A DNA stretch of 64,000 nt from Trueperaceae bacterium (GTDB taxonomy: Bacteria; Deinococcota; Deinococci; Deinococcales; Trueperaceae). Within the stretch, counting starts at the first letter, position 1; every line of letters begins with the position of its first letter. The notes below the pieces were generated by a model. The model searched no databases, was not told the DNA's origin, and saw only the letters and a program-made list of their open reading frames with translations. The translations under genes and the position numbers were made by a program. Below are positions 221 to 18,471 of this stretch, one piece after another. The stretch lies in assembly GCA_023954415.1 (NCBI GenBank), contig JAMLIB010000003.1, forward strand, positions 1 through 64,000, given 5' to 3'.

Positions 221-1420
221 CTACTCCGTCGCTCCGACGTACCTGGCCCTCGGCCGTATCACCCGGTCAGACGTGTACTGCTCCATCACATGCGCGATGA
301 TGCCGGCGGTTCGACCTATCGCGACCAACCCGTGGATCGCGTCTTGGGGTAGACCTAGTATCGGCTCCGACACCGCTAGCGCGAAGTCCACGCGCGGGTG
401 CTCGTGCGAGGCTAGCTCTATCAGCCTGGACGTTTCCTGGAGAAGAGGGTAGTGCTTCGTCCCGGAGAGGTTGTCCATCAGCGTCAGCACCCGCGGATCT
501 GGCCCGGCGTAAAGGCGGCGGTACGGGTTGTGTACGCCGGGGATGTTGCCGCTGCGGCGCAGGTAGCGCCGGATCACGGTCTCCGGGTCACCCGTGGCTA
601 TCACCTCGTTGAAGAAGGCCTTGGCCTCCGACACCTGGCCGAAGAGGTGGCGGTACCCCTGTAAGGAAGCCAGACCGGCCATCAACGATTGATAGAGGGT
701 CGCGCCCGCGCTGGCGGCACAGCGCGCGGTGAACGTGGCGATGTTCAGTTCATGGTCGGCGACCACGATCAGCAGGGTCTCCAGTCGTTTCCGATCGGCT
801 TCCCATGCGCTAGCGAGGGTCGAGCTGACGCTACCGTGGTACGTGCGCCCAGTGCTCAGATAGACGAGGTAGAGCATCAACTCGATGGCACTCGGTGTCA
901 ACAGTGCTGCCGTCGTACCGTAGGCCCGTAGGTTCCGGTGCTCGAGGACGGGGAGGATGGTCTGCATGCGCTCGATCGGTGTCATGCTCTCGTCCAACCG
1001 ATCGACGAGCGTGAGGTCGATGTCTCCCAGCCACTGCTCCCGGGGTGGGGGCAGCTGGTCGCCTTGCCGGTCGCCTGTCCACAGGAACTGAGCGACCTGC
1101 TCGAAGCAGAAGTTGCGCGACAGCTCGCGTGAGCTGATCCCCCGGTACGAATGCTCCGTCTCGGTGATCTGGGATATCGCCGTGGTCAGGATCGGCGTGC
1201 CGAACTCGATGACCTCGGTCGCGGCCCGATCGGGGTCTTTGCGAAAGCTGGTCCTATGCTTGAACGCCAACAACTCCCCCTTGTGGTACACGCGCGCGCG
1301 GCTGCGTGGCGAGACCGCTCTGGAGTGCAGCATGCCGCGGCTGACGTACGAGTAGAGCGTGGCCTTGCTGACACCGAGGAGCTCGGCCGCCTCGTCTGCG
1401 CTCAGGCTGTCGTCGTTCAT
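221..1420 (-). CDS. HTH-citrate synthase-like protein, probably a regulator
   Basis: Residues about 5-55 form an excisionase/MerR-type helix-turn-helix (AAELLGVSKATLYSYVSRG). The rest is a citrate synthase fold with DHELNIATF, a GVHNPYRRL segment and DPR, and VDF for the catalytic Asp. The segment matching the catalytic GPLHGGA loop reads ASLQGYRH, so the first catalytic His is replaced by Gln. Condensation activity is therefore doubtful, and acyl-CoA or oxoacid sensing is an inference. I chose the ATG at 1420 because a TACCCT box lies 5 bases before it; an in-frame ATG at 1444 would add eight residues. It is divergent from the cassette 1 operon and shares a dyad-bearing promoter region with it. 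Confidence 0.8.
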   Translation of the reverse strand: MNDDSLSADEAAELLGVSKATLYSYVSRGMLHSRAVSPRSRARVYHKGELLAFKHRTSFRKDPDRAATEVIEFGTPILTTAISQITETEHSYRGISSRELSRNFCFEQVAQFLWTGDRQGDQLPPPREQWLGDIDLTLVDRLDESMTPIERMQTILPVLEHRNLRAYGTTAALLTPSAIELMLYLVYLSTGRTYHGSVSSTLASAWEADRKRLETLLIVVADHELNIATFTARCAASAGATLYQSLMAGLASLQGYRHLFGQVSEAKAFFNEVIATGDPETVIRRYLRRSGNIPGVHNPYRRLYAGPDPRVLTLMDNLSGTKHYPLLQETSRLIELASHEHPRVDFALAVSEPILGLPQDAIHGLVAIGRTAGIIAHVMEQYTSDRVIRPRARYVGATE

Positions 1421-2506: not shown

Positions 2507-3418
2507 ATGGCCATGCCCCCAGCCGAGTTGGGCGTTCCCCAAGCGAGGACGGCGCGCTCCCGTTCCGCCGTCAGCGCCTTGCTGAGGCAGTTCGCCAGGA
2601 GCAGAACGGCTGTCATGGGGCTGGTCATCTTCTCTGTGATCGTGCTTGTCTCGGTCTTCGCACCCTTCATCGCTACACATCCACCGCAGCAGATCGTGCC
2701 GGCCGAGAGGCTGCAGGCTCCCTCCAGAAGCCATCTGCTAGGCACCGACAACCTAGGCAGGGACGTCTTCAGCCGCGTCGTGTACGGGGGGCGCACGTCG
2801 TTGTCCATAGCCGCCGTCGTAGTGGTGATCACCGGTGTTATCGGCACGGCGCTGGGCCTCATCTCGGGTTTCTATCGGCGCATCGACGGCGTCCTGATGC
2901 GGTTCATGGATGGCCTGATGGCGATCCCAACGCTGCTCCTGGCGATCGCCCTCATCGGCGTGCTCGGCCCCAACTCGGTCAACCTCGTCATCGCGCTCAG
3001 CGTCGTGTACGTCCCACGGGTCGCCCGCATCGCCAGAGCCACGACCTTGCAGGTCCGAGGTCTCAGCTACGTCGAGGCGGCCCGTGCCTTGGGCGGCCTC
3101 GACCGCCGCCTCGTGTTTCGCCACATCGCCCCGAACGCACTGGGTTCGATCAACGTGCAGCTGACGTTCGTCTTCGCGTACGCGGTCTTATCCGAGGCCG
3201 CGTTGAGCTTCCTGGGAGTGGGCGCGCCACCGGAGGTCCCGACGTGGGGCAACATCCTCAGCGAGGGCCGGGCTTACATGATCCTGTCCCCATGGATCGC
3301 GTTCTACCCCGGCGTGGCGATCATGCTCACCGTGCTGGGCCTGAACCTGATGGGAGACGGCTTGCGTGACCTCCTCGACCCGCGACTGGTCCGCGGCACG
3401 GGAGGAGGTGGGGGCTGA
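2507..3418 (+). CDS. Peptide ABC transporter permease, DppC type
   Basis: Inner-membrane permease of the oligopeptide/dipeptide family. An N-terminal cytoplasmic stretch is followed by a first membrane segment (VMGLVIFSVIVLVSVFA), the DppC-specific LLGTDNLGRDVFSR motif, then five more hydrophobic segments. The ATPase-contact EAA loop is visible as EAARALGG. The C-terminal GDGLRDLLDPR is typical. The start follows TAGGAGGAG. Order in this operon is hydrolase, DppC, SBP, DppB, M20 peptidase, which splits the usual DppB-DppC pair. No DppD or DppF ATPase is encoded nearby. Confidence 0.93.
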   Translation: MAMPPAELGVPQARTARSRSAVSALLRQFARSRTAVMGLVIFSVIVLVSVFAPFIATHPPQQIVPAERLQAPSRSHLLGTDNLGRDVFSRVVYGGRTSLSIAAVVVVITGVIGTALGLISGFYRRIDGVLMRFMDGLMAIPTLLLAIALIGVLGPNSVNLVIALSVVYVPRVARIARATTLQVRGLSYVEAARALGGLDRRLVFRHIAPNALGSINVQLTFVFAYAVLSEAALSFLGVGAPPEVPTWGNILSEGRAYMILSPWIAFYPGVAIMLTVLGLNLMGDGLRDLLDPRLVRGTGGGGG

Positions 3419-3561: not shown

Positions 3562-5232
3562 ATGAAAGCAGCATCTAGCCCACCCACACTACGCACGACG
3601 GCCAGCGGGTTGCCGGGCCGGGCCGTCCTCTTCCGCCTCAGGCTCCTGATCGCGGTCTGCGCGCTGGCCTGTACTTGGGCTCTCGCGCAGCCGCCGCAGC
3701 GACTCATCGACTACGCCGCTGCCGTCGGCGTTCATCCGGAAGACCCACGCATCCCGAACGTCGGAACGCCGCGCTTCGGCGGGGTCTTCACCTACGCGCA
3801 TAATGAGACCTTGGCGTCGCTCGACGCTCACAAGAGCGCGGCGGCTACCACCGTGACGCTGAACATCCATTTCGCCGAGGGCCTGTTCGCGCTCGACGCC
3901 ACCGGGACCAGCCGACCCGATCTGGTGGACAGCTACACCGTCAGCGATGACGGCACCGTCTACACCTTCTCCTTGCGTCAGGGGGTTCCGTTCCACAACG
4001 GTGAGATCCTCGGTGCCGCCGACGTGGTCGCGTCGCTGCAGCGCTGGTTCGGCGGAACGTTGGGCAGCCAGGCCGCGCGCTACATCAGCGAGCTCAACGT
4101 CGTGGACCAGTACACCGTGGAGATGGTGCTCACCGAGCCATACCCCTTCATCATCTACCAGCTCACCGTGCCCCAGACCAGCGGGGCGTACATCTACCCT
4201 CGCTCACAGATCGAGGCGGTGGGCGACGGGACCATCGACACGCCGATCGCCACCGGACCCTACTACGTGGCCGACGTCCGAGAAGGCGACTACGTGCGCT
4301 TGGTGCGCTTCGACGACTACGTAGGACGCGTCGAGCCCCCCTCCGGTTTCGCGGGTGGCAGAGTCGCGTACCTAGACGAGATCATCATCCAGACGGTCCC
4401 CGACGCCATCGTTCGCATGGCCGGTGTCGAGACGGGGCAGTTCGACAAGGCGCACAACGCCACCAACGACATGTACTCGCTGTACGCCAACCGTCCTGAC
4501 ATCAGGCCCCGTATCGCGATGGGCAGCTTCGCCACCGCGCAGTTCAACAAACGCCAAGGTCCGATGACTGACCAGCGGCTACGCCTGGCGTTCAACTACG
4601 CGATCGACGTGCGCCAGATCGTGGCGGCTGCCGGACCGCCCGAGTTCACCGAGGCCAACTCCTCGTTGGCGCCGCGGGACGATCCTTGGTACACCCCCGT
4701 GGGCGAGGAGGTATACCTCGGCTACGACCCCGAGTACGCGAGGGCCCTGCTGGCCGAGGCCGGATACAACGGCGAGCCGATCAGATGGTTGGTCGACCCG
4801 TCCGTGGCGTCCTACTACACCTCGGCCCAGGTAGCCGTGCCGATGCTCGAAGCGGTCGGCTTCAACATCCAGTTGGTGCCGATGGATGCGGCCACGCTCC
4901 GCACCATGCGCAACGACGAGACGGCGTACGAGGTCTACGCCCAGGGGCTCGGGTGGCGTGCCGACCCTGCGGCGCTGACCAACCTCTCAGACAGCAATCC
5001 GGGCTGGTGGGTCACCGAAGAGAAGACCCGCATCCTGGAGGCGATGAGGCTCGAGCAGGACTTCGATAAGCGCTACGCCCTCTGGGAGGAGTTGCACGCG
5101 CACATGTATGACTACATGCCTGCAGTGAAGTTCGAGACCTTCGGATCGCTGAGCCTGGAGCGCGCTGCCTACAGTGGGGCCTTCCAGGCCTGGGCCTACG
5201 TCGACTTCATCAACACCTGGCTGAACGACTGA
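3562..5232 (+). CDS. ABC transporter substrate-binding protein, family 5
   Basis: A 556-residue extracytoplasmic solute-binding protein of the SBP_bac_5 (DppA/OppA) family. The N-terminus has a long basic leader, a hydrophobic core and an ALA-Q signal peptidase I site near residue 43. Family marks are SYTVSDDGTVYTFSLRQGV, PFHNGEI and the RLAFNYAIDV segment. No lipobox is seen. The start has AAGGGA upstream. The 143 bases before it hold no recognisable gene. The ligand cannot be read from sequence; the flanking M29-like and M20 hydrolases suggest a peptide or N-acyl amino acid. A strong hairpin follows the stop codon. Confidence 0.92.
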   Translation: MKAASSPPTLRTTASGLPGRAVLFRLRLLIAVCALACTWALAQPPQRLIDYAAAVGVHPEDPRIPNVGTPRFGGVFTYAHNETLASLDAHKSAAATTVTLNIHFAEGLFALDATGTSRPDLVDSYTVSDDGTVYTFSLRQGVPFHNGEILGAADVVASLQRWFGGTLGSQAARYISELNVVDQYTVEMVLTEPYPFIIYQLTVPQTSGAYIYPRSQIEAVGDGTIDTPIATGPYYVADVREGDYVRLVRFDDYVGRVEPPSGFAGGRVAYLDEIIIQTVPDAIVRMAGVETGQFDKAHNATNDMYSLYANRPDIRPRIAMGSFATAQFNKRQGPMTDQRLRLAFNYAIDVRQIVAAAGPPEFTEANSSLAPRDDPWYTPVGEEVYLGYDPEYARALLAEAGYNGEPIRWLVDPSVASYYTSAQVAVPMLEAVGFNIQLVPMDAATLRTMRNDETAYEVYAQGLGWRADPAALTNLSDSNPGWWVTEEKTRILEAMRLEQDFDKRYALWEELHAHMYDYMPAVKFETFGSLSLERAAYSGAFQAWAYVDFINTWLND

Positions 5233-5320: not shown

Positions 5321-6265
5321 ATGAGCGTGTACTTGCTACGTCGCCTCGTGGCGCTGCTACCGGTCCTTGCCGTGGTCGGCCTCGTCGGGTTCAGCCTCGT
5401 GCATCTCGCGCCGGGCGACCCAGCTGCGACTCTTGTCGGCGACGACGCGTCCGAAGAGGTCCTGCAGCAGATGCGCGAGCGTCTCGGCCTCGACCGGCCG
5501 CTGGGAACCCAGTTCTTCACGTGGGTGGGTAACGCCATCACGGGCAACCTGGGAACCTCGCTATACACCGGACGTCAGGTCCTGCCGAGCATCGTCTCGC
5601 GGCTCGAGCCTACGCTGATGCTCACCGCCATGAGCCTCGTGGTCGCCCTCCTCAATGGTGTGGTCGCGGGCGCCGCCAGCGCCATCTATCGCAACACCGT
5701 GCTCGACCAGGCCGTTCTCGTGGTCTCGCTGTTCGCGGCCGCGATGCCTAGCTTCTGGCTCGGCATCAACCTGATCCTGCTCTTCTCGGTGACCCTGAGG
5801 CTCTTCCCTGTCGCGGGGTACGTCCCACTCTCACAAGGACTGCTCGGAACCGTCCACTCCCTGATGCTGCCGGCCCTCGCGCTCGGCTTGAGCCAGGCCG
5901 CGATCATCACTCGCATGACCCGCACGACCATGCTCGAGGTGCTCGGGCTCGACTTCGTGCGCACCGCCAAGGCCAAAGGGCTCAGACAGCGGTCGGTGAT
6001 CTTCCGCCACGCTCTGCGCAACGCCCTGGTCTCGATCGTCACCGTCGTCGGCGTGGCGGTCACCGTACTGCTCAGCGGCTCCATCGTGGTCGAGAGCGTG
6101 TTCGGCCTTCCCGGCCTCGGACGCATGATGATCGAGGCCGTGCAGAGGCGCGACTACCCCGTCATCCAAGGGATGCTCGTCTTCGTGGCCGGGGTCAACG
6201 TGATCGTGAACCTGGTCGTCGACATCCTCTACGTGTTCATCGATCCACGTATCGAGTACGTGTAG
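5321..6265 (+). CDS. Peptide ABC transporter permease, DppB type
   Basis: Starts with the typical DppB N-terminus (MSVYLLRRLVALLPVL) and the LAPGDPA motif after the first membrane helix. The RLGLDRPL segment, six hydrophobic helices, the EAA-type FVRTAKAKGL loop and the C-terminal DILYVFIDPRIEYV all fit the family (314 residues, normal length). It pairs with the DppC at 2507-3418 to form the membrane channel for the SBP at 3562-5232. It lies 88 bases after that gene, beyond the hairpin, and 46 bases before the M20 peptidase gene. Confidence 0.93.
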   Translation: MSVYLLRRLVALLPVLAVVGLVGFSLVHLAPGDPAATLVGDDASEEVLQQMRERLGLDRPLGTQFFTWVGNAITGNLGTSLYTGRQVLPSIVSRLEPTLMLTAMSLVVALLNGVVAGAASAIYRNTVLDQAVLVVSLFAAAMPSFWLGINLILLFSVTLRLFPVAGYVPLSQGLLGTVHSLMLPALALGLSQAAIITRMTRTTMLEVLGLDFVRTAKAKGLRQRSVIFRHALRNALVSIVTVVGVAVTVLLSGSIVVESVFGLPGLGRMMIEAVQRRDYPVIQGMLVFVAGVNVIVNLVVDILYVFIDPRIEYV

Positions 6266-6311: not shown

Positions 6312-7445
6312 ATGAGCAGGATCCTGAGCTACTTCCAGGAGCGCAAGGGCGCTCTCATCGACGGTCTGCGGCAGATGGTCGAGATCGAGTCGCCGACCCT
6401 CGAGCCGCAGCGCGTGAACGCCATGGGAGAGCATGTCAAGGAGAGGCTGCGCTCACTGGGGGCCAGCGTGGAGGTCGACACGCAGACCGAACGCGGTCAC
6501 AACGTGATAGGCAGGTTCGGGGACCCGGCCATGGGCGATCCGGTCCTGATGATCGGGCATACGGACACGGTATGGAAGGTGGGGACCCTCGAGGAGCGCC
6601 CGTTCCGTGTGGACGGCAACCGCGCCTTCGGGCCCGGAGCCGCAGACATGAAGTCGGGCTTGATCATCATGCTCGCCGTCCTGGAGGCCATCAACGACCT
6701 CCAGCTTCCGCTGCCCAAGCCCCTGACCCTGATCTTCAACTCCGACGAGGAGATGCAGAGCCTCTACTCGCGCGAGCTGATCGAGAAGGAGGCCCGCAAG
6801 AGCTTCTGCTCGCTGGCCTTCGAAGGTACCCGCGACCTTAACGCCTTCACCACCAGCCGTAAGGCGTCGGGCCGCTTCACGGTGCGGGCGAAGGGTAAGT
6901 CTGCGCATGCGGCCAGCGGTCTGAGGGAGGGTGTCAACGCCATAGAGGAGCTGGCCCACCAGGTCACCAAGGTTCAGGGATTGACGGATTTCGGCACCGG
7001 AACCACCATCAACGTCGGCACTATCGCGGGGGGTGACAGGCCGAACATCATCCCGGACTGGGCCGAGATGGTGCTCAGTGTGCGTGCGGTCACCACCGGG
7101 GAGATGGGACGCATCGAGCAGGTTCTCAGGAGCCTCGAACCGCACTTGGCAGGTGCCGAGATCTCGGTCTCGGGCGGCTTCCATCGCCCACCTCTCGAGG
7201 AGACGGAGGCCAGTAAGCGGTTGCTCGGGCGGCTGCGCGAGGTGGCCTCCGAGTTTGGCATCGATGCTAGAGGTGAGCTAGGTGGAGGCGCCGGCGATGC
7301 GAACCTCACGTCTGCAGTCGGTTGCCCTTCGATCGACAGCATGGGCGCGGTCGGGTTCGGCGCGCACAGCGTGGACGAGCACATCCTCATCGACGAGCTA
7401 CCGGCTCGAGCGGCGGTCGCAACGCGGTTCATCACGTCCTTGTGA
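6312..7445 (+). CDS. M20 family metallopeptidase (CPG2-like)
   Basis: A 377-residue cytoplasmic di-zinc peptidase of the M20A/carboxypeptidase G2 type, which removes C-terminal amino acids or deacylates N-acyl amino acids. All expected residues are visible: GHTDT with His83 and Asp85, bridging Asp112 in ADMKSG, catalytic Glu146-Glu147 in SDEEM, Glu171, and a C-terminal His in GFGAHSVDEH. His199 in the dimerisation domain (KSAHAASG) completes the site. The start follows GAAGGAG. It is last in cassette 1 and probably processes the imported solute. It is convergent with the S9 peptidase, 41 bases apart. Confidence 0.92.
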   Translation: MSRILSYFQERKGALIDGLRQMVEIESPTLEPQRVNAMGEHVKERLRSLGASVEVDTQTERGHNVIGRFGDPAMGDPVLMIGHTDTVWKVGTLEERPFRVDGNRAFGPGAADMKSGLIIMLAVLEAINDLQLPLPKPLTLIFNSDEEMQSLYSRELIEKEARKSFCSLAFEGTRDLNAFTTSRKASGRFTVRAKGKSAHAASGLREGVNAIEELAHQVTKVQGLTDFGTGTTINVGTIAGGDRPNIIPDWAEMVLSVRAVTTGEMGRIEQVLRSLEPHLAGAEISVSGGFHRPPLEETEASKRLLGRLREVASEFGIDARGELGGGAGDANLTSAVGCPSIDSMGAVGFGAHSVDEHILIDELPARAAVATRFITSL

Positions 7446-10216: not shown

Positions 10217-11803
<1,587 letters not shown>

Positions 11804-11855
11804 ACCACGGAAGGCTGCCGCCGGATGGCGGTCCGCAAGCGCGCCCGCGCCGAGC

Positions 11856-12905
11856 TCAGCCGCCCCAGACGGTACTGAAGACGCGCAGCCAGTTCCCGCC
11901 GAGGATCTTCCCGACCGCCTCGCCGTCGTAGCCGCGGCCGCCCAACGCGGCGACGAGCGCCGGCAGGTCGCCGTAGTCGTCGAACCCCTTGACCTGCCGC
12001 AGCTTCGAGCGGGGAGAGCTCTCGATCGCGTCGCCGTACTCGGTGCCGCCTAGCGCCTTCCCGCGCACGTGCTCGCCGTCGGGGTAAGTGCCGATGCTCA
12101 TGTCCGTGCCGATGCCGACGTGATCGATCCCGATCAGGTCGACCAGGTAGTCGATGGCGTCCAGGTACCGCTCCACCGTCGGGCGAGTTCGTGAGCCCGG
12201 CTCGTAGTTGAGTGGCCCCCAGTTGGTCGGGGCGACGAGGCCGCCCGTCCTGGCGGCGCCCTTGATCTGCTCGTCCGTGATGTTGCGGGGGTTTTCTACG
12301 AGCGAGCGCGGGTTGGAATGGGAGAAGACCACGGGCTTCTCGCTCGCCTCGATGATGTCCAGCGAGCTCCGCTCCCCTACGTGCGTGAGGTCGATGACGA
12401 TCCCTAGACGGTTGCACTCCCTGACCCAGTCGCGGCCGAACCTGGTCAGCCCGGAGTTGGCCGGCTCCAGGCAACCGTCCGCGATGGCGTTGCGGTTGTT
12501 GTAGGTCGGCAGCATCATCCGCAGCCCGAGCGTATGGAACAGGGGCAGGCGGTCGAGGTTGGCCGCCAGGAAGTCGCCCCCTTGGGCTGTGAGCACCAGG
12601 GTCGTCCGCCCGTCCGCCTTGGCGTCCACGATGTCCTGCGCCTGGAGCGCCAGGGCGATGGTGTTGTGCCGCCTCGCCGCGCTTTGCCACGTGGCCATGG
12701 CGTCGAACGCGCGGCCGGCGTCATCGCGCGGATCGAACGCCGTGACGCACCAGGCCGCCACCCCGTACTCGTGCAGCGAACCCAGGTCGGCGTCTTCCCA
12801 GATCTGTACGCAGGAGTCGATGAAGAGCTGGTCTAGCTGGACCTTGCGGTGTACGCCCTTGGCGAGCGGGTTGGGTGGGTAGCTGTCGTAGCGGGTTCCC
12901 TGCAT
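11856..12905 (-). CDS. M19 dipeptidase-like protein with a degenerate metal site
   Basis: A 349-residue TIM-barrel protein of the peptidase M19 (renal/membrane dipeptidase) family, with DGCLEP, NRLGIVIDLTHVG, VFSHSNPRSL, NPRNITDEQI and DHVGIGTDMS. The N-terminal DGHxD ligand motif reads DSCVQIW, and the bridging Glu of EGGDxL is Gln (AQGGDFL). Only the two later His and the Asp remain, so a normal di-zinc centre cannot form. Activity on ordinary dipeptides is doubtful. The start follows AGGAGG. It is second of two M19-like genes in one operon and a close relative of the protein at 49176-50243. Confidence 0.85.
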   Translation of the reverse strand: MQGTRYDSYPPNPLAKGVHRKVQLDQLFIDSCVQIWEDADLGSLHEYGVAAWCVTAFDPRDDAGRAFDAMATWQSAARRHNTIALALQAQDIVDAKADGRTTLVLTAQGGDFLAANLDRLPLFHTLGLRMMLPTYNNRNAIADGCLEPANSGLTRFGRDWVRECNRLGIVIDLTHVGERSSLDIIEASEKPVVFSHSNPRSLVENPRNITDEQIKGAARTGGLVAPTNWGPLNYEPGSRTRPTVERYLDAIDYLVDLIGIDHVGIGTDMSIGTYPDGEHVRGKALGGTEYGDAIESSPRSKLRQVKGFDDYGDLPALVAALGGRGYDGEAVGKILGGNWLRVFSTVWGG

Positions 12906-12931
12906 CGTTGACCTCCTGATGACGGTGGGGT

Positions 12932-13918
12932 TTACTTCCAGGTTCGCGTATACAGGTCCAGCATGTTCCCGCCCAGGGCCCCGGCCACATCCGGCTCGCT
13001 CCAGCCTCGCCGGCGCAGCGCTTCCGCCAGCTTCGGGAAAGCGCTGATCGGCATGGGATAGCGGTGCTTGATGTTCGGCCCGAACTTGTCGACGAAGGCG
13101 CCCGTCACGCTGCCGTAGGCGGCGTTGATCTCCTGGAAGTGGGCGAGGATGTTGGCCATGTTGTGGCTGATCGGCCCGTCGGTGGCGATTCCGACGTGCT
13201 TGGGTCCGACGAGGTCGGCGATGTAGCTCACGTGATCCGCGACGGTCTCGATGGACGGCGGCTCGTCGGAGCCGGTCCAACTGATGGGCCCCCAGCCGCA
13301 GGCGCCTATCACGCCCCCGAGCGCGGCGCAGGCCTCGATCTGTTCGTCGCTGATGTTGCGAGGGTTGTCGGCCAGCGCCCGCGCGTTGGAATGGGAGAAC
13401 GTGACGGGGGCACGACTCGCTTCCATAGCCTCCATGCTCGTCCTAGCGCCGACGTGCGTGAGGTCTACGAGGATGCCCGTGCGGTTCAGCTCCGCGATCA
13501 GCTCCCGGCCGAAGGCCGTCAGACCCGTGTCGTCGGCGACCAGGCACCCGCAGCCGACGTCGTTCACCTCGTTGTACGTGATCTGGACCACCCGCACGCC
13601 GAGCTCGTGGAAGCGGCCGACGAGCGATAGATCTCGCCCGATGGGTAGCGCGTTCTGGAAGTGGAAGACGATCCCTACCCGCCCTTCCTCGTGGGCGGTG
13701 CGGATCTCATCGACTGTGCCGACGACGCAGAGCTTCTTCGGATCGGCGGCCACGATCTCCTTCGCCGCCTGGATCTGCCGGCTGGCGGCGGCCGCGTCCT
13801 CGGTGGCCGAGGCGACGGTGAGCTGCAGGACCGTCAGGCCGGACGCTTCGAGCTTGTCGTTGTAGCCATCGAACTCCCAAGCGCAGTTGTCGATGGCGAT
13901 GAAGGGTAGCTGAGACAT
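12932..13918 (-). CDS. Second M19 dipeptidase-like protein
   Basis: A 328-residue M19 relative, more divergent than its neighbour. DLTHVG, FSHSNARAL, NPRNISDEQI and VGIATDG show the later His and Asp positions. The N-terminal ligand motif is replaced by AIDNCAWEFDG, and the bridging Glu region reads HFQNALPIG, so HxD and Glu are again missing. The ATG at 13918 has GGAGG upstream; an upstream extension to 13966 is open but lacks such a site. Only 26 bases separate it from the second M19-like gene. It is divergent from the GntR gene, which makes it a likely target of that regulator. Confidence 0.83.
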   Translation of the reverse strand: MSQLPFIAIDNCAWEFDGYNDKLEASGLTVLQLTVASATEDAAAASRQIQAAKEIVAADPKKLCVVGTVDEIRTAHEEGRVGIVFHFQNALPIGRDLSLVGRFHELGVRVVQITYNEVNDVGCGCLVADDTGLTAFGRELIAELNRTGILVDLTHVGARTSMEAMEASRAPVTFSHSNARALADNPRNISDEQIEACAALGGVIGACGWGPISWTGSDEPPSIETVADHVSYIADLVGPKHVGIATDGPISHNMANILAHFQEINAAYGSVTGAFVDKFGPNIKHRYPMPISAFPKLAEALRRRGWSEPDVAGALGGNMLDLYTRTWK

Positions 13919-13959
13919 GGGAACCTCCGACTGCTTCCGAGGGTCGGCCCTCGACAAAG

Positions 13960-14017
13960 TTGACACCGTCTCACCTGCTTAGTACACTCTAGCGCATCGG
14001 TAGGCATTGGAGCAATG
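13960..14017 (+). promoter_or_regulatory. Promoter and dyad before the cassette 2 GntR gene
   Basis: TTGACA (13960-13965), a 17-base spacer and TACACT (13983-13988) form a strong sigma-70-type promoter. A short dyad CATTG-GAG-CAATG (14005-14017) lies in the expected leader and touches the Shine-Dalgarno GAGGTG, a plausible autoregulatory site. Confidence 0.65.
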
Positions 14018-14024
14018 AGGTGCG

Positions 14025-15083
14025 TTGAACGAGTTCTGGACGCAGTTATTCGTGGATCGCGAGAGCCAGGTGCCGCCCGTCCGTCAGATATCCGATGCCA
14101 TTCGGCACGCTATCGCGACGAACCGTCTACAGGGGGGTGAGGCGCTTCTATCGGTTCGGCAGTTGGCGGCGCTCCTCGAGGTGACCCCCGCCACGGTCGG
14201 TCGAGCCTTCTCGCTGCTCCGCGCCGAGGGGTTGCTGCGCTCTAAGACCGGATCGGCCACGGTCGTCGCCGACATCACGAACGTGGACGGCGCGGCCCAA
14301 GAGAGAGCCAAGGCCGTGGCGCGCGGCATCGTCGACAGGGCCATCGACACCGTCGTCGGCATGGGTCTGAGCATCCGTCAGATCCGGGCCATAGCCGACA
14401 GGAAGCTCACGCAGTTGGAGGCGTCGCGTAACGTGATCTTCGTCGCCGGTGCTCGACCGGTCGTAGACAAGTACCACGGCATCGTCGAGGCCGCCGTCGG
14501 ACCGGCCGGCTACAGCGTTCACTCCTACACCGTCGCGGAGCTGTCCCACCCGGCCCCCGAGCAGTTGGCGATCCTGAACTCGGCGGTGCGGCTCATCTGC
14601 CTTCTGAGCTTCAAGCAGACCGTCGAGGCGACCCTGCGCTCCGCTGGGTTCAGCGTGCCGGTCTCCGTCCTGCTCACGGAGATCACGATCGGGACTTCCG
14701 CGAAGCTCGCGAGCCTCTCGTCGGACGAGACGGTCCTAGTGGTCGCCGAACCGGAGTACCGCAACTCTGCCGTGGGGTTGGTGCGTTACTACGTGCCCGA
14801 CGAGCGGATCGTAATCGCGACAGAGCTCGACAGGGAGTCCTTGTTGGCGTGCTTCGAGCGCGTCGACATCGTCGTCCACACCCTCGGCTGCAGCATGCTC
14901 ATCGGGCCGGCGGGTGAGGTTGGCAAGAAGGTCGTCCAACTGGAGTACTACCCGCGCGCCGACGCCATCGAGCGCATCGTCGCGACCCTCGGTGAGCCCG
15001 ATCTTCGTCAAGGCCTGACCGACCTTGCTCCCGGCAGTGCGGCCAAGGAAACGTCATCGATTCGGAATGTGGAGGTAAGTTGA
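14025..15083 (+). CDS. GntR-family regulator with an unrecognised C-terminal domain
   Basis: Residues about 14-80 are a GntR-type winged helix (SVRQLAALLEVTPATVGRAFSLLRAEGLL) followed by a short hinge. The remaining 260 residues match none of FadR, HutC, MocR or YtrA by eye. They look like an alternating alpha/beta ligand-binding fold with NVIFVAGARPVVDKY and TVLVVAEPEYRNS strands. The protein at 44193-45278 has the same architecture and a similar length. The start is TTG at 14025 with GAGGTG four bases upstream. The stop overlaps the SBP start (TGATG), so the regulator and the binding protein are translationally coupled. Confidence 0.85.
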   Translation: MNEFWTQLFVDRESQVPPVRQISDAIRHAIATNRLQGGEALLSVRQLAALLEVTPATVGRAFSLLRAEGLLRSKTGSATVVADITNVDGAAQERAKAVARGIVDRAIDTVVGMGLSIRQIRAIADRKLTQLEASRNVIFVAGARPVVDKYHGIVEAAVGPAGYSVHSYTVAELSHPAPEQLAILNSAVRLICLLSFKQTVEATLRSAGFSVPVSVLLTEITIGTSAKLASLSSDETVLVVAEPEYRNSAVGLVRYYVPDERIVIATELDRESLLACFERVDIVVHTLGCSMLIGPAGEVGKKVVQLEYYPRADAIERIVATLGEPDLRQGLTDLAPGSAAKETSSIRNVEVS

Positions 15084-16576
15084 TGTTGAACCGAATGAAG
15101 CTCGTCATCCTCGCGCTTGCCGCGGCCGTGGTGCTCATCGGCACCGCGGGTGCTCAGCGGCTCGTCATAGCCCAGGGCCAGGACATCGTCTGGCTCAACC
15201 CCATGAAGACGACGGCGCAAGTCAACCTCAACGCTTCCACGCAGATCGTCGAGACCCTCATGGACTACAGCTACGAGGCCGGGGCCGTCGTCCCGCTCCT
15301 GGCCACGAGCTGGGAGCGACTCGACGATCTGACCATGCGGGTCAGTCTCCGCCAAGGCGTCACCTTCACGAACGGCGAGCCTTTCAACGCCGAGGCTGCG
15401 GCGTTCAGCCTCACCCTCGCCGCCTCCGAGCCTGCGATGTCCGGCTCCCTGTCGTTGGTGGAGAGGGTCGATGTTGTCGACGAGTACACCATCGACGTAG
15501 TCACTTCGAAGCCCGACCCGCTCCTCGACATCTCCCTTTCCAGGGCGTCGTACATGGTGCCGCCCGCCTACTTCCAGGAAGTAGGGGCGGAGCAGTTCAA
15601 CGTAGCGCCCATCGGCACCGGCCCGTACGTGCTTCAAGAGCGCGTCCCGGGCGAGCGCGTCGTCCTCGGCAGCAACGCGGACTACTGGGGAGGGGCTCCG
15701 GAGATCGCGGAGGTCGAGTTCCGGCCGATCCAGGAGGACGGCGCTCGGCTCGCCGCCCTGCAGGCCGGTGAGGTGCAGATCGCCACGAACATGCCTCACG
15801 GGCTTTACGACCGGCTCGCCGCCTCGAACGGCGTGGCCGCCGTCACCGTTCACGGCGCCAGGACGATGTACCTGATCCTCGATTCGCGAGAAGGCAGCGT
15901 GCTCAAGGACGTCCGTTTGCGGCAGGCCATCAACTACGCGATCGACAAGGAAGCCTTGCTCGACGTCCTGTTCGCGGGGCGGGGCACGGTGCTGCAGGGG
16001 CAGATGGTTACCCCCGACTACAACGGCTTCAACGACGCCCTGTCCGCCTACCCGTACGACCCGGAGCGCGCGCGTGAACTCCTGGCCGCCGCGGGCTACC
16101 CGAACGGCCTCACGCTCGACTTCAAGTACCCGTTCGGGCGTTACGCCGGCGACCGGGAGACGTCCGAGGCCGTGGCGGGGATGCTCGAGGAAGTCGGTAT
16201 CAAGACCAACCAGATCGTCCTGGAGGGCGGCGAGTTCCTGAGCCAGCTCACGACACTGCAGCTGACGCCGATGGCCTTCGTCGGGTACGCCACCGCTCCG
16301 GACGCGATCTACCAGTACAACATCAACATCACTGGCGAGCGCTACGCCTACTACAGCAACCCGGACTACGATGCCCTCGTGAACGCAGCGGCCACCGAGA
16401 TGGATCCCGCCAAGCGTCTTGACCTCCTCAAGCAGATCGGTCAGCTCGGCTACGACGACCCGCCGTACGCCTACCTGTTCGCGCCCGACGACCTCTACGG
16501 GGTGTCCGACCGCGTCGGCGGTTGGGTCCCGAGACCCGACCAGGGCATCGACCTAGCCGGCGTGACCCTCGACTGA
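15083..16576 (+). CDS. ABC transporter substrate-binding protein, family 5
   Basis: A 497-residue periplasmic binding protein of the DppA/OppA family. It has a short basic N-terminus, a hydrophobic core and a TAGA-Q cleavage site near residue 22. LLATSWERLDDLTMRVSLRQGV, FTNGEPF and LRQAINYAIDKEAL are family blocks. The ATG at 15083 has GGAGGT six bases upstream and overlaps the GntR stop codon by one base. It is related in sequence to the cassette 4 SBP (both have the LRQGVTFTNGEPF type block). The solute is unknown. A strong hairpin follows the stop codon. Confidence 0.92.
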   Translation: MLNRMKLVILALAAAVVLIGTAGAQRLVIAQGQDIVWLNPMKTTAQVNLNASTQIVETLMDYSYEAGAVVPLLATSWERLDDLTMRVSLRQGVTFTNGEPFNAEAAAFSLTLAASEPAMSGSLSLVERVDVVDEYTIDVVTSKPDPLLDISLSRASYMVPPAYFQEVGAEQFNVAPIGTGPYVLQERVPGERVVLGSNADYWGGAPEIAEVEFRPIQEDGARLAALQAGEVQIATNMPHGLYDRLAASNGVAAVTVHGARTMYLILDSREGSVLKDVRLRQAINYAIDKEALLDVLFAGRGTVLQGQMVTPDYNGFNDALSAYPYDPERARELLAAAGYPNGLTLDFKYPFGRYAGDRETSEAVAGMLEEVGIKTNQIVLEGGEFLSQLTTLQLTPMAFVGYATAPDAIYQYNINITGERYAYYSNPDYDALVNAAATEMDPAKRLDLLKQIGQLGYDDPPYAYLFAPDDLYGVSDRVGGWVPRPDQGIDLAGVTLD

Positions 16577-16589
16577 ACGAACGCCGTTC

Positions 16590-16626
16590 GCCGGGGGCCT
16601 GACCGCAGGTCGGTCAGGCCCCCGGC
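16590..16626 (+). terminator. Hairpin after the cassette 2 SBP gene
   Basis: A perfect 15-bp stem, 16590-16604 with 16612-16626, has a 7-base loop and is followed by GTTCAATTAGTT. It sits between the SBP and permease genes of one operon, so partial termination or 3'-end protection is more likely than a full stop. Confidence 0.75.
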
Positions 16627-16673
16627 GTTCAATTAGTTGACCAGTTCCCGAAGCGTCATCAGAAAATGATCGA

Positions 16674-17591
16674 GTGAGCGTCTACCTCATCCGCAGGGCA
16701 GTGAACACCTTGGTGGTGCTGGTCGGCGTGGCGACCTTGGCGTTCTTCCTGGTGCGCCTCACGGGTGACCCGGTGACCCTGCTGCTGCCCCTCAACGCAA
16801 CGCCCGAGGCCATCGCCAAGCTGCGTTCGACGCTCGGCCTCGACCAGCCACTATGGGTACAGTACCTGCGTTACTTGGAGTCGATCGTCAAGGGCGACTT
16901 CGGGAACTCGATGCGCTTCAGCCTCCCGGCATTCGACCTGTTCAAGGCCCGCTTCCCGGCGACCCTGGAGCTCGTCGGCATCGCGACCGCGGTCGCGGTC
17001 CTGCTCGGCATCCCGTTCGGCGTGGTCGCCGCGGCGTCGAGGGGGAGCGTGCTCGACGCGCTCCTGATGGGCCTGGCTGCGCTCGCCCAAGCCGTCCCAG
17101 GGTTCTACCTCGGCCTCATGCTCATGCTCCTGTTCTCGGTCGAGCTGGGATGGCTGCCGACGGGCGGGCGGGGGAGCTGGCAGCAGCTCGTCATGCCGGT
17201 GGCCGTGCTGAGCAGCTTCCTGATAGCGCTGCTGGCGCGCATGACCCGGTCGGCCTGCTTGGAGGTGGCGGGCCAGGACTTCATACGGACCGGCCGTGCG
17301 AAGGGGATCGGCGAAGCACGGCTGCTCCTCAAGCACGTGCTCAAGAACGCGTTGATCCCGATCATCACGCTGATCGGCCTGCAGGTGGGGACCCTCTTCA
17401 GCGGGGCCGTGGTCACGGAGACCATCTTCAGCTGGCCCGGGATCGCTCGCCTGGCTCTCGACGGCATCTACAGCCGCGACTACCCCATCGTGCAGGTCGT
17501 GGTGGTGATGAGCGCCTCCATCTTCGTGTTCATCAACTTGCTAGTTGACATCATCTACATCGCGGTCGACCCGAGGATCAAGTATGGGTAG
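16674..17591 (+). CDS. Peptide ABC transporter permease, DppB type
   Basis: A 305-residue permease with the DppB N-terminus (YLIRRAVNTLVVLVG), the RLTGDPV motif, LGLDQPL, the FIRTGRAKGIG EAA-type loop and the C-terminal DIIYIAVDPRIKYG. Six hydrophobic helices are evident. The start is GTG at 16674, and no convincing Shine-Dalgarno precedes it. Its 3' end overlaps the DppC gene by 8 bases, which implies coupled translation of the two permease subunits. No ATP-binding subunit is encoded nearby. Confidence 0.92.
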   Translation: MSVYLIRRAVNTLVVLVGVATLAFFLVRLTGDPVTLLLPLNATPEAIAKLRSTLGLDQPLWVQYLRYLESIVKGDFGNSMRFSLPAFDLFKARFPATLELVGIATAVAVLLGIPFGVVAAASRGSVLDALLMGLAALAQAVPGFYLGLMLMLLFSVELGWLPTGGRGSWQQLVMPVAVLSSFLIALLARMTRSACLEVAGQDFIRTGRAKGIGEARLLLKHVLKNALIPIITLIGLQVGTLFSGAVVTETIFSWPGIARLALDGIYSRDYPIVQVVVVMSASIFVFINLLVDIIYIAVDPRIKYG

Positions 17592-18471
17592 CCCGCCTTC
17601 GAGCCCCTCGCTAACGAGGCGACGCAGAAGCAAGCTCGCGAAGCTCCTGCGCAATCCCAAAGGGGTGATATCGGCCGGCGTGGTCGTGCTGTTCCTCGTC
17701 ATGGCGTGCCTGCCGAACTTCATGCTCCCCGGCGACCCCTACAAACAGACGCTCAGGAACAGGTTCCAACCACCCGCTTGGGTGGAGGGCGGGAGCTGGG
17801 CGAACCCGATCGGCGCGGACAACCTGGGTCGGGACCTGCTCTCGCGCACGCTTCGTGGCGCTCGGATCTCGCTGTTGACGACGGCGGCCAGCGTGGCTCT
17901 CGGCGCCCTCCTCGGTGTGACGCTCGGCCTGCTCGCAGGCTTCTACGGGGGTTGGTTCGACGAGGTCATCTCGCGACTGATGGACATCCAGCTGGCCTTC
18001 CCCCTGATGCTCTTGATGATCGCGATCGTAGGCGTGCTTGGCGCCAGCCTGCCGGTCCTGGTGTCCGCGCTCGCGGTATCGGCCTGGCCGAGGTACGCGA
18101 GGCTGATACGAGGTTCTGCCCTGGCGCTTCGTGGCAGGGAGTTCGTCGAGGCGTCGTACGCGCTGGGTTCCAGGAGCCTCGCCACGCTCTTCAAACATGT
18201 GGGTCCGAACGCCATCTCTCCCATCATCGTCTTCACGACGTTCGAGCTCTCGAGGATCATACTCATCGAGTCCTCGCTCTCGTTCCTGGGCCTTGGTGTG
18301 CCGCCGCCGACACCTTCCTGGGGTTCCATCGTCGCCGACGGGCGCACCTACTTGCTCGATGCCTGGTGGATTTCGGCGTTCCCGGGGCTGATGATCGTCG
18401 TCCTCGTGTTGGCCTTCAACTCGCTCGGTGACGTCCTGCGGGACCTGCTCGATCCGCAGGTCCGGGGCTGA
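17584..18471 (+). CDS. Peptide ABC transporter permease, DppC type
   Basis: Starts at the ATG at 17584 inside the end of the DppB gene. It has a basic N-terminus (RRRRSKLAKLLRNPKG), a first helix, the DppC-specific IGADNLGRDLLSR motif, five further helices, EASYALGS for the EAA loop and GDVLRDLLDPQ at the C-terminus. Its 295 residues are normal for the family. It forms the second half of the cassette 2 channel. The 120 bases that follow contain a small palindrome and a -10-like box before the aminotransferase gene. Confidence 0.92.
   Translation: MGSPPSSPSLTRRRRSKLAKLLRNPKGVISAGVVVLFLVMACLPNFMLPGDPYKQTLRNRFQPPAWVEGGSWANPIGADNLGRDLLSRTLRGARISLLTTAASVALGALLGVTLGLLAGFYGGWFDEVISRLMDIQLAFPLMLLMIAIVGVLGASLPVLVSALAVSAWPRYARLIRGSALALRGREFVEASYALGSRSLATLFKHVGPNAISPIIVFTTFELSRIILIESSLSFLGLGVPPPTPSWGSIVADGRTYLLDAWWISAFPGLMIVVLVLAFNSLGDVLRDLLDPQVRG

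Follow-up and report, generated by a model that had tools for sequence, protein, structure and literature searches.

The locus at 221-1420 on the minus strand of the window, by which we mean the whole 64,000-nucleotide stretch of Trueperaceae DNA that was analysed, raises the question of what a citrate synthase (CS) domain does when it is joined to a DNA-binding helix-turn-helix (HTH). The open reading frame extends over 221-1444 (407 aa) with an in-frame ATG at 1444; the ATG at 1420, which gives a protein of 399 aa, fits the relatives better, homologue starts lying 5-10 residues ahead of the HTH, and the gene limits of an earlier sequence-only reading thus hold. That reading had described an excisionase/MerR-type HTH fused to a CS domain, and Pfam finds both above cut-off in the one protein: HTH_17 (E = 6.5e-9) over 1259-1405 and Citrate_synt (PF00285; E = 2.6e-43, 148.9 bits against a cut-off of 27) over 248-1201. 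The HTH also scores 23.9 bits with MerR_1 (cut-off 21.6) and 20.3 bits with MerR (cut-off 28.2), and neither a GntR HTH nor an aminotransferase domain was found by Pfam. Its recognition segment, TLYSYVSRG, contains T, L, Y, S, R and G residues that are invariant among 51 relatives. In an AlphaFold model computed from a 36-row alignment (mean pLDDT over the whole protein 89.8), the HTH (residues 5-58) is set apart by a linker of low confidence (66-76) from a full CS domain, for which all PDB matches listed by Foldseek are citrate or methylcitrate synthases (best TM 0.68-0.69); the HTH is covered by no PDB chain among the matches listed, all of which start at profile position 73 or later. Against the NCBIfam CS models the protein stays far below every cut-off (105.7 bits where 421.3 are needed), and two further ordinary citrate synthases are encoded in the same genome, so that the tricarboxylic acid cycle has no need of this one.

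The gene is divergent from a plus-strand operon (1489/1519-7445), and the description of the latter as a peptide-uptake operon is borne out by its content: an OppC/DppC-type ABC permease (2507-3418), a family 5 extracellular solute-binding protein (SBP_bac_5, 3562-5232), an OppB/DppB-type ABC permease (5321-6265) and an M20 family, glutamate carboxypeptidase-like peptidase (6312-7445). No ATPase gene was found in this operon. Its first gene encodes an M29/NicX-like metallohydrolase (1519-2490); the start in the list of open reading frames is a GTG at 1489, 68 bp from the ATG at 1420, and the orthologues favour the ATG at 1519. The product resembles 2,5-dihydroxypyridine dioxygenase (PDB 7cn3, E 2e-10); as a side observation, the protein read from 1489-2490 has no Pfam match at E<=1, and an orthologue weakly matches Peptidase_M29. 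An orthologue of the M29-like gene is the divergent gene in all four genus members, and the genus relatives retain it together with the peptide-type ABC operon. A second amide/peptide cluster lies nearby (10217-18471), with an amidase, an M19 dipeptidase, a GntR regulator, an SBP_bac_5 protein and two apparent permease genes.

Proteins of this architecture (HTH-CS) can be told from plain CS by the score of the A1 profile, above 330 bits for the former and below 200 for the latter. They occur in 8 of 111 genomes of Deinococcota, the phylum of the window, in 44 of 398 sampled Pseudomonadota genomes (about one in nine) and in 3 of 199 genomes of an Acidobacteriota-type phylum that is represented by a Bryobacterales record (G114), as well as on public plasmids from Rhizobiaceae, Burkholderiaceae, Azospirillum, Ewingella and Deinococcus. 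When genome contigs were scanned with the window protein, every locus returned was CS-like and lacked an HTH. For the 51 HTH-CS loci analysed here, which come from three phyla, Citrate_synt was detected in all and HTH_17 in 47. In a tree of the CS domains, from which L019 and L032 (wrong reading frames) and the long-branched L046 were excluded, HTH-CS forms one side of a branch with an SH-aLRT value of 100, apart from plain CS. In public records such proteins are annotated as 'citrate synthase' or 'citrate/2-methylcitrate synthase', and CS-like groups of no assigned function are listed in domain databases. No account of an HTH-citrate synthase regulator turned up in the literature searched, which is weak evidence of absence because subscription papers lay mostly outside the search; the family is widespread and, it appears, uncharacterised.

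Among these 51 loci, 47 are divergent from one of six kinds of enzyme. The most frequent partner is a plain CS of the PRK12350 type (28 loci: L040, L041, L043, L048, L086-L088, L091-L098, L102-L105, L107-L111, L113, L115, L117 and L118), followed by an HMGL/NifV-LeuA-like synthase (5 loci, all in Deinococcota), a CaiB-type CoA-transferase (5 loci), the M29/NicX-like protein of the window genus (4 loci), a prpB-like protein (4 loci) and a TPP enzyme (1 locus). Transport genes, the target assigned by the sequence-only reading, are thus a feature of the window genus; elsewhere the partner is usually an enzyme of CoA, oxoacid or tricarboxylate metabolism. One of the prpB-like partners (L106), the one tested, is a methylisocitrate lyase above the NCBIfam equivalog cut-off, that at L114 belongs to the same superfamily at a greater distance, and that at L120 heads a divergent run of prpB, prpC, a gene for a 927-aa aconitase-like protein and prpF, the last three recognized by eye from sequence. 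The HMGL-like condensing enzymes of Deinococcota (L052, 8386-9687; L053, 10956-12290; L039, 3620-4663; L045, 4631-5929), which carry a TTHRDGQQGG motif, match NifV, LeuA and citramalate synthase models, all below cut-off. In the partner CS of the PRK12350 type, Glu replaces the catalytic Asp (28 of 28) and the GPLHGGA loop is followed by Pro where Asn is usual; the real substrates of these enzymes may be other than acetyl-CoA and oxaloacetate.

A link between these proteins and DNA is provided by the intergenic region. A candidate operator, CTTGATCATCAATCAAGATTGACA, lies at 1451-1474 (no strand assigned), 30-55 bp ahead of the regulator's own start codon, and is marked out by its conservation in the genus, its recurrence in three phyla and its single genomic copy. 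It contains the perfect dyad TCAATCAAGATTGA (TCAATC-AA-GATTGA) at 1459-1472, a second dyad, CTTGAT-N5-ATCAAG, at 1451-1467, and a TTGACA hexamer at 1469-1474; TCAATNTTGAT is matched exactly 52 bp upstream of the ATG at 1420. In three genus relatives with about 62% protein identity, TCAATCAAGATTGACA is identical and the rest of the intergenic DNA has changed. Upstream regions of HTH-CS genes (up to 120 bp, either strand) contain TCAATNTTGAT exactly in 44 of 51 cases (0.08% in dinucleotide shuffles) and, if one mismatch is allowed, in 49 of 51 (2.1% in shuffles); the 51 loci include close relatives and amount to fewer than 51 independent observations, and the deepest branches share the motif. 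The two HTH-CS genes without it are those at L046 and L099, and in the upstream regions of 37 plain CS genes it was not found with either 0 or 1 mismatch. Between loci the 11-bp core is 93% identical and the outer flanks are 28% identical, as expected at random. The dyad noted earlier between the two genes is therefore real and, recurring upstream of nearly all relatives, far above chance; its supposed position between promoters is not supported, as no sigma-70-like promoter was found.

The site is as restricted within genomes as it is conserved between them. TCAATNTTGAT occurs once in the 3.2-Mb genome of the window, at this site, and once in each of the sister genomes G003, G004 and G005, adjoining the HTH-CS gene, and it was not found in G001 and G002, which belong to the same genus and lack HTH-CS. 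In Pseudomonadota the consensus extends to (G/A)TCAATCTTGAT-N7-ATCAATnT, and a 23-bp form (at most one mismatch) is present once per genome, beside HTH-CS, in all 11 Pseudomonadota genomes tested; a backwards control of this form gave zero copies in the same 11 genomes. The bare 11-mer is an imperfect marker, because a few copies occur in other genomes without HTH-CS. Read by eye at L009-L012, L013, L039, L045, L116, L117 and the Pseudomonadota loci, TTGAT and the outer ATCAA half-site are 5 bp apart in the window genus, 7 bp apart in Pseudomonadota and 6 bp apart in the Acidobacteriota-type loci and most of the other Deinococcota; such variation would not be expected of a simple rigid dimer.

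One alternative is that another regulator owns the site, or that it is itself a promoter or RNA element, HTH-CS proteins then being orphan enzymes whose HTH is vestigial. The TTGACA-like hexamers inside the site, which could overlap a -35 box, speak for this view. However, the site has stayed with HTH-CS across three phyla and no fewer than six partner changes, is absent from the genus members that lack HTH-CS and exists as a single copy per genome, and the supposedly vestigial HTH has an invariant recognition segment; we consider this explanation very improbable. A simple overlap with a sigma-70 promoter was rejected, given the missing promoter and the lack of any sharp -10 enrichment at a fixed spacing downstream of the operator on the target strand; the sole -10-type signal lies at +3 on the HTH-CS strand, inside the operator. 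The conserved upstream sequence is, on comparative sequence evidence, almost certainly the binding site of HTH-CS. Since the partner class changes at least six times on the CS-domain tree and the operator is retained throughout, regulator and operator stay together as the target changes.

The active site of the CS domain bears on both the activity of these proteins and the nature of their effector. The residue equivalents below follow pig CS numbering. The sequence-only reading had held that the GPLHGGA loop reads ASLQGYRH, with the catalytic His replaced by Gln, but this was a misalignment: LQGYRH pairs with LKGPLH, and in both pairwise and multiple alignments the Gln is the residue preceding the Gly. 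The catalytic His of the GPxH loop (pig His274) is kept as His258 of the 399-aa form, within GYRH (647-658, minus strand), and far from being lost in general it is present in 49 of 51 HTH-CS. Also kept in the window protein are the catalytic Asp (pig Asp375) as D345 and pig Arg329, Arg401 and Arg421 as R310, R370 and R389. The second catalytic loop has been rebuilt: GFGH has become GVHNPYR, so that PGVHNPYRRLY (509-541, minus strand) stands where plain CS have PGFGHxLY, a 3-residue insertion displaces the catalytic His, and the pig His320 position is aligned with Asn or Arg, one His sitting one residue earlier. The three genus relatives share with the window protein both the three additional residues in this loop and one additional residue after the GPxH-loop His. 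Directly after PGVHNPYRRLY, the window protein has Ala at the position four residues past the GFGH-loop His that is equivalent to pig Arg324, which contacts the CoA phosphate.

Across the family, 49-51 of the 51 members retain the catalytic Asp and the residues for oxaloacetate and citrate (pig His238, Arg329, Arg401 and Arg421), and the catalytic set stands at 49 for the GPxH His, 46 for the GFGH His and 49 for the Asp. A family-wide loss of catalytic residues is thereby ruled out. At L046 (6007-7275) the GPxH His is replaced by Thr and the catalytic Asp by Glu, and at L099 (1495-2751) a Gln is found in the GFGH loop. Since most members keep His, His and Asp, those outside the window genus may be enzymatically active, and it can be imagined that HTH-CS proteins are bifunctional (trigger) enzymes, active as citrate, methylcitrate or alkylmalate synthases, that also bind DNA and repress without substrate in the manner of PutA. 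The retained triad and the Lys that six members have at the CoA position would fit such a role, but the window clade combines a displaced GFGH His and the 3-residue insertion with Ala at the CoA position, the CoA Arg/Lys is lost in most members, and the divergent target is often a separate plain CS, which would make a second enzyme redundant. Taken together, these points make a bifunctional enzyme unlikely.

A regulator of the same kind, acting on the same operator, could instead respond to an acyl-CoA such as acetyl- or propionyl-CoA. The CS fold has a CoA site, and several partners use acyl-CoA, namely the plain CS and the CoA-transferases. This ligand nevertheless seems rather doubtful: the CoA-phosphate position is always Lys or Arg in the plain and partner CS rows (22 plain rows, two of which, L019 and L032, are wrong reading frames), whereas in the 51 HTH-CS it is Pro in 38, Ala in 5, Ser in 1 and Lys or Arg in only 7, and some partners, such as the M29-like protein, prpB and the TPP enzyme, involve no CoA chemistry. 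The likely effector of HTH-CS is an oxoacid or a citrate-like or malate-like acid rather than acetyl-CoA, because the pocket keeps the residues for oxoacids and tricarboxylates and has lost the one for the CoA phosphate, and because most partner enzymes act on oxoacids, tricarboxylates or CoA derivatives of these. Of the earlier proposal of a CoA or oxoacid sensor, the second half is accordingly favoured over the first. The window genus has both active-site loops rebuilt and an operon for uptake and hydrolysis as its target, so the effector there is probably a different acid, for example an acidic product of the imported compound, rather than citrate.

We propose that the window gene very likely encodes a one-component transcription regulator, in which the HTH binds 1451-1474 and the CS domain serves as a dimeric sensor, controlling the divergent operon. 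The HTH would bind the operator as a CS-type dimer, and the protein would control 1489/1519-7445 and probably, the operator lying so close before its own start codon, its own gene as well. When bound, it would restrain both the divergent promoter and its own; an acid fitting the oxoacid/tricarboxylate pocket would then shift the arrangement of the two HTHs and lead to release. A repressor released by its ligand is only slightly favoured over an activator, both being inferred. For the family, the best reading is that HTH-CS are single-target transcription regulators that use the CS fold as an oxoacid/tricarboxylate sensor, their operator conserved and their targets changed. We put at roughly 70% the probability of the full proposal: that this is a previously undescribed family of bacterial transcription factors in which the CS fold, its oxoacid pocket largely intact, acts as ligand sensor, that it has kept one operator in at least three phyla and swapped its target several times, and that in the window genus the pocket has been rebuilt for a new ligand tied to the uptake and hydrolysis of a peptide-like compound. 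The idea that an enzyme fold acts here as the sensor of a DNA-binding regulator is thus strongly supported, by an operator that follows HTH-CS across three phyla and by genomes with a single site, and not by the loss of the catalytic His from which it had been argued.

If so, proteins that are counted in public records as enzymes of central metabolism are probably regulators, and some of them may be the missing regulators of methylcitrate operons in some Pseudomonadota. The family would illustrate cleanly how an enzyme fold can become a sensor whose DNA site is conserved and whose targets change, and it is relevant to the question of how enzymes give rise to their own regulators; a single operator and one target per genome make it directly testable.

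Several known systems invite comparison. Type II citrate synthases and 2-methylcitrate synthases (PF00285; PDB 3hwk, 3o8j and 1ixe) share with the window protein the fold (TM 0.68-0.69), the oxoacid-binding His and Arg residues and the catalytic Asp; the window protein differs from them in its N-terminal HTH, its rebuilt GFGH loop, the lack of a CoA-phosphate Arg or Lys and its place on a separate branch. With MerR/excisionase-like proteins, HTH-CS have in common an N-terminus that matches HTH_17 and, weakly, MerR_1, but the CS domain occupies the place of the coiled coil and effector domain of MerR. Regulators of propionate catabolism are known as PrpR, either the sigma-54 PrpR of enterobacteria or mycobacterial PrpR (PMC6765138), and some HTH-CS loci (L120) are likewise divergent from an apparently whole methylcitrate operon of prpB, prpC, aconitase and prpF genes; unlike PrpR, HTH-CS comprise HTH and CS domains only (by Pfam), with no sigma-54 activator domain, the CS domain being the proposed sensor. 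Regulators of the MocR/PdxR type, which consist of a GntR HTH and an aminotransferase-fold sensor, resemble HTH-CS in the fusion of an enzyme fold to an HTH, in operators that contain repeats and in the control of related metabolic genes (PMC5320631), whereas HTH-CS combine an unrelated HTH class with an unrelated enzyme fold, do without PLP and, where tested, have a single operator in each genome.
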